From: Thermoflexibacter ruber
Lineage (GTDB): Bacteria; Bacteroidota; Bacteroidia; Cytophagales; Thermoflexibacteraceae
Direction: 5' to 3'
Assembly: GCF_900113045.1 (NCBI RefSeq)
Contig: NZ_FONY01000013.1
Span: forward strand, 1 to 64,000
Length of the DNA stretch: 64,000 nucleotides
The position numbers and the translations under genes were made by a program. Position 1 is the stretch's first letter. The number at the start of each line of letters is the position of its first letter. Below are positions 35,175 to 37,598 of this stretch, in pieces. The notes below the pieces were generated by a model that worked only from the letters and a program-made list of their open reading frames with translations, did no database searches and was not told the origin of the DNA.

Positions 35175-36305
35175 ATGTTACCTAACGAAATATTGTTTTT
35201 TGTTGCTTTTACCACTTTCATTCTTACAGTCCTCCTGTTAGACCTTGGAGTTTTTTCGAGAAAAAATCATATTGTTGGCTTCAAAGAGGCAGCAGCATGG
35301 AGTGCAGTATGGGTGATGTTTGCCCTCGTTTTTTATGTTATCTTAAATTTTTATGGAGAGAAGATTCACGGCATTACAAAAATGGAAGAGTTAGCCGCCG
35401 TAGTGAATCGATACGACCCGGGAGAGGTGGATATGTCTTCTGAGAATTTTGATGTGGCTATTCAGTTGTATAGAAACAATCTCGCTATAGAATTTATCAC
35501 TGGTTATTTATTAGAGTATTCTCTTTCGGTAGATAATATCTTTGTTATTATTCTTATTTTTTCCTCTTTCGGTGTAAGGGAAAAGTATTACAAAAAAGTA
35601 CTTTTTTGGGGGGTATTAGGGGCTATCCTTATGCGTTTTACTTTTATATTTGTAGGTTCTGCACTTATTTATAAGTTTAATTGGATTTTATATCTATTTG
35701 GGGCATTTCTCATTTTCACAGGAATTAAGATGTTTCTCAACAGAGATGACGAAGACGAGAAGATAGAAGTAGATAAGCACCCAGTAGTAAAAATAGTGTC
35801 CAAATATTTTCCTCTTTATCCTCGCTTTGTAAGAGAACGCTTTTTTGTTAGGAAAAATAATCAGTGGTTTTTAACTCCTTTATTTTTAGTTGTTTTAATT
35901 GTAGAGTTTACTGATTTGATTTTTGCGGTGGATTCCGTTCCTGCCGTATTTGCTGTAACCCAAGACCCTTATATAGTGTTTTTTTCCAATATTTTTGCTA
36001 TCATGGGCTTGCGTTCTATGTTTTTCTTCCTATCCAATATTCTCCACTTTTTTCATTACTTAAAAGTTGGCTTATCTTTCTTGATGGTATTCATTGGCTT
36101 TAAAATGCTGGCTCACAAGTGGCTAAAAAGCATAGGCTTTGAAACGGTCTATTCGCTGTATATTATTTTGTTTATTTTATCTGTAAGTATTATTGCCTCG
36201 CTTATCTTCCCCCCGAGTAAGAAAGAAAAATCTGTATTAAATGGTCAGGACTACTCTTTGGCAAAGAAGAAAGCCAAAGAAAGTGTTACTGAGAAAACTC
36301 CGTAA
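35175..36305 (+). CDS. TerC family membrane protein (Alx/MeeF-type)
   Basis: A 376-residue protein with about eight to nine membrane segments. The conserved acidic intramembrane stretches are present: LLLDLGVFSRK in the first segments, EYSLSVDNIFVIILIFSSF, and EFTDLIFAVDSVPAVFAVT. TerC proteins are implicated in manganese export or co-translocational metallation and in tellurite or alkaline-pH responses. An inserted segment with HGITKMEELAAVVNRYD lies between segments two and three. The C-terminus is basic and cytoplasmic. Function here is by family only. Confidence 0.88.
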   Translation: MLPNEILFFVAFTTFILTVLLLDLGVFSRKNHIVGFKEAAAWSAVWVMFALVFYVILNFYGEKIHGITKMEELAAVVNRYDPGEVDMSSENFDVAIQLYRNNLAIEFITGYLLEYSLSVDNIFVIILIFSSFGVREKYYKKVLFWGVLGAILMRFTFIFVGSALIYKFNWILYLFGAFLIFTGIKMFLNRDDEDEKIEVDKHPVVKIVSKYFPLYPRFVRERFFVRKNNQWFLTPLFLVVLIVEFTDLIFAVDSVPAVFAVTQDPYIVFFSNIFAIMGLRSMFFFLSNILHFFHYLKVGLSFLMVFIGFKMLAHKWLKSIGFETVYSLYIILFILSVSIIASLIFPPSKKEKSVLNGQDYSLAKKKAKESVTEKTP

Positions 36306-36396: not shown

Positions 36397-36416
36397 CTTT
36401 TTACTCTTGTAAAAAG
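36397..36416 (+). terminator. Probable terminator downstream of the TerC gene
   Basis: CTTTTTAC and GTAAAAAG form a perfect 8-bp stem with a 4-nt loop about 90 bases past the stop codon. A T-rich stretch (TGTTTTTACTC) follows, and a drifted second copy of the same hairpin lies just after it. Confidence 0.45.
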
Positions 36417-36496
36417 ATGTTTTTACTCTTTTAAAAGTATAATTTTAAGCAAATATGATTTTTTTATGAAATTTTATTATTTTTTTTAGTTAAAAT

Positions 36497-36528
36497 TTTG
36501 TGTATTTCATTAACGTTTCTTACATTTG
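36497..36528 (+). promoter_or_regulatory. Consensus Bacteroidota promoter for the 40-residue microprotein gene
   Basis: TTTG at 36497-36500 and TACATTTG at 36521-36528 are separated by 20 bases, an exact match to the phylum's -33/-7 consensus. The start codon at 36572 is about 40 bases past the -7 element. Confidence 0.7.
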
Positions 36529-36571
36529 TAATGTAAAAATCGCTGTTTCACCAAAGATAAATAACTGACTT

Positions 36572-36694
36572 ATGATTACTGCTAAGAGAAGTACTCAGAC
36601 TACAAGTGATAAAAGTAAAGTTGCGTTGATTGTTGTTGTTGCTCTGATAGCACTCATCAACATCGTCAATGCTATATCCATAATCTTTGAATAA
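36572..36694 (+). CDS. Single-pass membrane microprotein, 40 aa
   Basis: A 40-codon frame too short for routine gene calling. A polar, basic N-terminus (MITAKRSTQTTSDKSK) precedes one clear hydrophobic helix (VALIVVVALIALINIVNAI) and a short acidic end. Support comes from context: a consensus promoter sits about 40 bases upstream and a rho-independent terminator about 35 bases downstream, so it forms a complete transcription unit alone. Length and layout resemble regulatory or scaffold microproteins of the inner membrane. I do not recognise a family. Confidence 0.7.
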   Translation: MITAKRSTQTTSDKSKVALIVVVALIALINIVNAISIIFE

Positions 36695-36727
36695 GGTTTC
36701 CTTGGGGAAAGTAATCTGAAAATAAGA

Positions 36728-36775
36728 AACACTTTTTAATTAAAAGTCAATTCAAGAAAGTGTTTTTTATTTTTT
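36728..36775. terminator. Terminator between the microprotein gene and uppP
   Basis: AACACTTT at 36728-36735 and AAAGTGTT at 36757-36764 form a perfect 8-bp stem followed by a T-rich run to 36775. It ends the plus-strand unit and may also serve uppP, which converges from the right. Confidence 0.7.
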
Positions 36776-36806: not shown

Positions 36807-37598
36807 TTATGAAAATGCGATAGCCAATATCCCTATTAAAAAACAATAGGCGGCAAAATAGATAAGTTTACCCCTTTTCACGATCTCTATCATCCATTTG
36901 CAAGCAATAAGCCCTGAAATAAAAGCGGCAAAAAAGCCCGCAATAAGTACTATACTGCTCAAATCTTGGTTTTCTGAGGCTTGCTCAAAATAATCCTTCA
37001 TTTCTAAAATAGTTGCTCCCACTATTGGCAATAAAACCATTAGAAAAGAAAAGCGTGCCGCTTGAGGTCTGCCAGTTCCTACCAAAATTGCTGTACTAAT
37101 AGTAGCCCCAGAGCGAGAAATACCAGGAAGGATAGCTACCGCTTGTGCAATGCCGATGGCGATTGCCCTGCCAAAAGTAACCTCACCTCCTTGCTTATGC
37201 CTTAAAAAATGAGTAAGCAATAGCAAGACTCCAGTCAAGCAAAGCATAAAACCTACTGAAACAATGTTTCCCTCAAAGAACTGTGCTACCTCACTCTTAA
37301 AAAATACGCCCACTACCCCAACGGGAATCATAGAAACTATGATTTTAGCCGCAAATTGGGTAGATTCATTCCATTCAAACTTAAATATATCCTTGATAAT
37401 CTGCCAAATATCTTGATAAAAAACGACTACTGTACTCAACATTGTTGCGGCGTGAACAATGACTGAAAAAAGCAAATCATCGCTAATTTTTACACCTAAT
37501 AATGCCTTCCCCAATTCCAAATGCCCGCTACTACTCACTGGCAGGAACTCAGTTAAACCTTGAACGATACCTAAAATAATTGATTCTATGATACTCAT
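36807..37598 (-). CDS. uppP: Undecaprenyl-diphosphatase
   Basis: Regenerates undecaprenyl phosphate, the lipid carrier for peptidoglycan and envelope polysaccharides. The protein is 263 residues with about eight membrane segments. Signature motifs are present: GIVQGLTEFLPVSSSGH at residues 10-26, with the catalytic glutamate, and LPGISRSGATIS near 160-171. The length is standard. In many Bacteroidota uppP lies in a cell-division cluster (ftsX - DUF3098 - uppP - truB); those neighbours are absent here. Confidence 0.95.
   Translation of the reverse strand: MSIIESIILGIVQGLTEFLPVSSSGHLELGKALLGVKISDDLLFSVIVHAATMLSTVVVFYQDIWQIIKDIFKFEWNESTQFAAKIIVSMIPVGVVGVFFKSEVAQFFEGNIVSVGFMLCLTGVLLLLTHFLRHKQGGEVTFGRAIAIGIAQAVAILPGISRSGATISTAILVGTGRPQAARFSFLMVLLPIVGATILEMKDYFEQASENQDLSSIVLIAGFFAAFISGLIACKWMIEIVKRGKLIYFAAYCFLIGILAIAFS

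Follow-up and report, generated by a model that had tools for sequence, protein, structure and literature searches.

The window analysed here comprises 64,000 nucleotides of Thermoflexibacter ruber (contig NZ_FONY01000013.1, positions 1 to 64,000), and contains a very short gene on the forward strand that runs from the ATG at 36572 to the TAA ending at 36694. The gene consists of 40 codons and the translated ORF 36572–36694 gives a protein of 40 residues, MITAKRSTQTTSDKSKVALIVVVALIALINIVNAISIIFE. It is preceded on the same strand by a terC-family gene (35175–36305) and followed by a convergent uppP/bacA gene on the minus strand (36807–37598). Between terC and the promoter of the short gene there is an A+T-rich palindromic stretch (36397–36445) in which two hairpin-like units resemble each other; it may be the terC terminator. 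The length of the frame alone is unremarkable, the ORF list of the window holding many frames of 40 codons, and it is because of its conservation, described below, that it is credible as a microprotein gene.

A promoter of the Bacteroidota primary-sigma type is located upstream of the gene (36497–36528, plus strand), with TTTG at 36497–36500, a spacer of 20 bases and TACATTTG at 36521–36528, the latter fitting the refined -7 box TAHHTTTG of F. johnsoniae as given in PMC6847099. The window has six occurrences of the pattern TTTG-N18-21-TANNTTTG where 3.2 are expected, and a count of six or more is reached in 15 of 100 shuffles, so that the promoter pattern of the window taken alone is weak evidence, a hint. 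If the F. johnsoniae promoter numbering holds, counted from the -7 box as in PMC6847099, transcription should start near 36533, with a predicted 5' leader of about 39 nt (36533–36571, plus strand) in which no Shine-Dalgarno sequence is seen by eye. The F. johnsoniae leaders have a mean length of 33 nt and A is favoured at position -3 (PMC6847099); the window gene has C there. Downstream of the gene there is an A+U-rich, intrinsic terminator-like hairpin with a T run (36719–36773, plus strand), with arms of 17 nt at 36719–36735 and 36757–36773 that are 94% complementary and 21 nt apart. The 61-nt terminator folds with -14.1 kcal/mol against a shuffle mean of -6.4, and none of 200 shuffles is as good; the hairpin is not among the results of an automated terminator scan that covers loops of 3–8 only. 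As the microprotein and uppP genes converge on it, it may serve both. A frame of 40 codons with one membrane helix, bracketed by a promoter and an intrinsic terminator, was what the sequence-only reading had described, and these elements are all found at the locus.

The 40 residues were compared with 59 relatives; at a limit of E 1 there were matches in 12 genomes, one of which is that of the window itself. The window protein alone matches G002 (same genus, 98% complete) at 1.2e-4 and G008 at 1.4e-4, and among the weaker places that were inspected the same C-terminal pattern is present in G003, G004, G007, G029 and G058. A profile of these eight rows, without G192 and G179, picked up G192 at 1.5e-7 and G179 at 3.9e-6. 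With the ten-row profile, which contains its own ten members by construction, matches at E 2e-14 or better are found in six of the 13 genomes of the window family and in four of the 18 genomes of a second Cytophagales family. The frame, on whose conservation in relatives the sequence-only reading had made its proposal depend, is consequently kept in G002, in four other genera of the same family and in the second family, and the genomes searched in the two families have one strong copy each at most. Seven of the 13 genomes in the window family have no accepted match, namely G001, a 62% complete genome of the same genus, and six that are 96–100% complete; the six nearly complete ones indicate that the gene is dispensable in the lineage.

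No further member was accepted from samples of 390 genomes of the order, 395 of the class and 395 of the phylum (class and phylum at E 5e-4), the two latter samples overlapping the order sample. One class-wide match (G688, E 3.1e-4) lies within a frame of 473 aa and was rejected. In the order sample 82 of the 390 genomes have a profile match at E up to 0.1, and 10 of them are counted as members; the other 72 matches (best E 3e-4), many of them within long frames or ending before the C-terminal motif, were dropped after an inspection in part, by a motif filter on fetched loci and by eye for 16 loci, and the first order-wide profile pass scored at most 19 candidates per genome. At a limit of E 1 every one of the 18 second-family genomes has a match; in 14 the match is no better than 0.0058, and these 14 were dropped. 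Members with an altered C-terminal motif could escape the searches. A scan of the named genome collection with a degenerate nucleotide pattern encoding the C-terminal motif gave 22 stretches; this pattern is blind to members whose C-termini end differently, among them the one in the window. Four of the 22 are members (G002, G003, G007, G008). In these the C-terminal 24 residues have a mean hydropathy of at least 2.0 and the C-terminal 20 are uncharged, a combination that none of the 18 non-member stretches shows. The plasmid and phage collections hold no match to the window protein, and no related locus was confirmed in scans of genome and viral contigs, at a tblastn limit that is strict for 40 residues.

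The window protein is divided into a charged tail, residues 1–16, and a membrane helix, residues 17–39, with N30-x-x-N33-A-I near its end. The same anatomy is found in all ten members, which are 39–51 residues long with tails of 16–27 residues before the helix, and in which a mostly hydrophobic stretch of 22–25 residues extends to the stop codon. The first Asn of the NxxN lies 13–17 residues into this stretch and 5–7 residues follow the NxxN, in every member. The C-terminal motif N-x-x-N-[A/L]-I is likewise present in all ten, as NxxNAI in nine and NxxNLI in G029, and the invariant columns of the ten-row alignment are L19, N30, N33 and I35. N30 and N33 are about one turn apart and the invariant Leu, 11 residues before N30, is on roughly the same face. 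All ten are small single-span proteins, of no more than about 50 residues with one membrane helix and a conserved frame, the helix being modelled for the window protein only; here AlphaFold2 gives one helix over residues 11–39, with a pLDDT of 96 for residues 21–30 and a mean of 78.7, which is the expected result for such a protein and uninformative on partners. The Lys and Arg residues before the helix suggest by the positive-inside rule a topology with the N-terminus in and the C-terminus out, but Asp is the last charge before the helix in G003 and G029, and acidic residues (6) outnumber the basic ones (5) in the tail of G058.

A TANNTTTG box within 110 nt upstream of the gene is present in eight of the ten members (not in G007 and G029), beginning 12–65 bases before the start codon, where 0.9–1.0 members are expected, and none of 1000 controls of either of the two kinds is as high. 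The box together with a TTG 16–24 bases before it is found in four members within 110 nt (0.1–0.2 expected, 0/1000 controls as high), and in five if 200 nt are considered. Strong hairpins 3' of the gene are found in three members only (G000, G002 and G004); among 10 random stretches per locus none is as strong for G000 and G002, and one for G004.

Some members had been chosen by their C-terminal motif, and a leave-one-out test was therefore run in which each member was scored against a profile of the others (G179 and G192 both being left out when either of them was scored) together with 1000 decoys, having the same tail but scrambled membrane residues, and so not natural membrane helices. The ten members score 27–48 bits, the best of the 10,000 decoys 24.6, and no decoy reaches its member. 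The only close pair is G179 and G192, with dN 0.063, dS 0.496 and a dN/dS of 0.13; 11 of the changed codons are synonymous and seven nonsynonymous, and the seven amino acid changes compare with 12.5 expected, as few residue changes being found in 0.125% of 20,000 random placements (P 0.00125). In codons 31–45 there are eight changed codons and all eight are synonymous, and the last two residues of the proteins differ. From this one measurable pair, purifying selection acting on the protein sequence is supported.

The genes around the microprotein gene were compared by blastp of 139 neighbouring frames from the ten loci, three of which are short (4.0, 9.7 and 12.1 kb), and no immediate neighbour is common to different genera with the exception of a cluster in the second family. 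In G002 the TerC, UppP and microprotein genes are on three different contigs, so the adjacency seen in the window is broken within the genus, and the functional connection to TerC and UppP at which the sequence-only reading had hinted is rejected. That the gene is a unit of its own is better founded, the upstream neighbour being divergent in nine members (all except the window) and the TANNTTTG box lying close before the start codon in most; the downstream neighbour is convergent in eight. Cross-genus matches between neighbours are scattered (e.g. G000/G008, G004/G029 and G003/G058), and none of them adjoins the microprotein gene. In the second-family cluster (L128 at G058:C1:1402413, L129 at G179:C36:17279 and L130 at G192:C415:1755) the microprotein gene is flanked in a fixed arrangement by MoaE (divergent) and histidine phosphatase (convergent) genes, and a cobalamin adenosyltransferase gene adjoins moaE, the Pfam names being those from G058. 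In G003 (contig G003:C48) a DUF4199 gene (L005, 946–1458, minus strand) begins 39 bases after the microprotein gene on the same strand; this is the closest co-directional neighbour among the ten loci and a possible lead to a partner. The UppP proteins of two g4 genomes (G005:C56 and G009:C108) are distant, with 32–33% identity against 53–70% in the other nine matching relatives, a possible gene replacement.

None of the ten members has a Pfam match above the cut-off, the best being 18.3 bits against a required 26.4, to the Sarcolipin model (E 0.0019). This match is found in one member of ten (G007, not the window protein) and is read as a chance hydrophobic match. In scans of the ten members the best E values are 0.093 in NCBIfam and 0.011 in PHROGs, and PADLOC gives none; there is no match to a solved structure (best E 5) and no Rfam match at the gathering threshold. 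No title naming the family was found in searches of the open-access journal literature. The family appears to be new, smORF catalogues aside, although single-span microproteins as such are well known. AcrZ, KdpF, CydX and MgtS, the single-span accessory microproteins of E. coli, are like the members short single-helix proteins, and proteins of this type are easily missed by annotation; the members differ from them in having no Pfam match above the cut-off and in that KdpA and CydA are absent from most holders. Sarcolipin and phospholamban, regulators of SERCA, likewise have a short tail and one helix, which is an analogy only. Bacterial C-tail-anchored proteins such as ElaB/YqjD likewise have a membrane segment at the extreme C-terminus, but carry larger cytoplasmic domains whereas the tail of the microprotein has 16–27 residues.

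The stand-alone gene would, in the explanation that we judge moderately probable, encode a single-span, tail-anchored inner-membrane microprotein whose Asn-bearing helix face is docked on a larger membrane protein. The positively charged N-terminal tail should be cytoplasmic and the helix of 22–25 residues end at the stop codon. L19, N30 and N33 (numbering of the window protein) form a strip that is constant among the members, unlike the tail, and a variable tail combined with a frozen helix strip is the pattern expected from binding inside the bilayer. The strip would most likely pack within the bilayer against the larger protein, which the microprotein may stabilise or modulate, by analogy with AcrZ, which binds AcrB, and KdpF, which raises the activity of a potassium transporter (PMC7267776). 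Points that weigh against this explanation are the lack of an accepted match in seven of the 13 genomes of the window family, the C at position -3 of the window gene, the strong terminator hairpins in three members only and the two changed C-terminal residues of the close pair; KdpA, CydA and ccoN, considered as partners, gained no support.

The main rival to this accessory role is self-assembly, in which Asn30 and Asn33 drive the formation of a homo-oligomer, from dimer to pentamer, that would act as a small pore or as a sensor of membrane stress with no larger partner. Asn residues inside a membrane are known to drive the association of helices, and two of them about one turn apart in a hydrophobic helix, with the invariant Leu on roughly the same face, would suit such an assembly, but an identical strip would equally serve a hetero-partner and we regard the homo-oligomer as rather unlikely. 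A role like that of KdpF or CydX, as a small accessory subunit of a pump or oxidase that is already known, agrees in size and topology, and the terminal helix of E. coli KdpF likewise has Asn-Ala close to its end. Against this, KdpA is found in two of the ten holders and also in G001, which has no accepted microprotein match, and CydA in three of ten holders compared with 12 of 21 non-holders; with no Pfam match above the cut-off either, neither the KdpF nor the CydX reading is retained, and this type of explanation is the one we consider barely credible. The ccoN gene is above the cut-off in 29 of the 31 genomes, holders or not, and is therefore uninformative for a cbb3-oxidase subunit (CcoQ/CcoS-like); G003 (89% complete) holds the microprotein and has no ccoN match.

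A type I toxin, in which an antisense RNA would keep a short hydrophobic peptide silent, is less likely than the homo-oligomer and in our view improbable, even though the size and the single hydrophobic helix suit the class. In seven of the ten members the strand opposite to the gene carries a -7-type box over it or close by (at 36552–36559, minus strand, a TANNTTTG-type box in the window), against 2.3 in random stretches with 4 of 1000 as high, and 1.9 in shuffles with 0 of 1000 as high, and as these boxes are above chance an antisense RNA may exist. Nevertheless, the -33 element is missing in nine members, the window included, and the full antisense pattern is found only in G003, inside the frame and directed towards and across the start codon, which with 0.3–0.5 expected is at chance. 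The boxes are at differing positions and some are on Lys codons of the tail, and may thus be by-products of coding, and others could serve the divergent neighbour. The toxin is further opposed by the single strong copy per genome and by the lack of plasmid, phage, confirmed viral or PADLOC matches in the collections searched. A small regulatory RNA in which the frame has arisen by chance would span about 246 nt between promoter and terminator, and this transcript folds somewhat better than its shuffles (z -2.2, 6 of 200 as good). The terminator alone is 7.7 kcal/mol better than its shuffles compared with 10.5 for the whole transcript, and since conservation is at the protein level and Rfam gives no match we find such an RNA very unlikely. 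The microprotein proposed in the sequence-only reading is supported by the conserved frame and by the purifying selection in the one close pair, with the antisense boxes counting against it.

Returning to the accessory microprotein docked on a larger protein, we propose more tentatively, and with some doubt, that the members may constitute an undescribed lineage-restricted family in which a helix ending in N-x-x-N-[A/L]-I near the stop codon would be the docking key for a membrane machine of the Cytophagales that is without a known small subunit. A very short gene that is spotted from the sequence alone can be substantiated by comparison, and a family of ten members with a defined motif offers a test of how single-span microproteins choose their partners beyond the Proteobacteria. 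The patchy presence over 31 genomes, with 10 holders and 21 non-holders, constitutes a phylogenetic profile by which the partner may be found.
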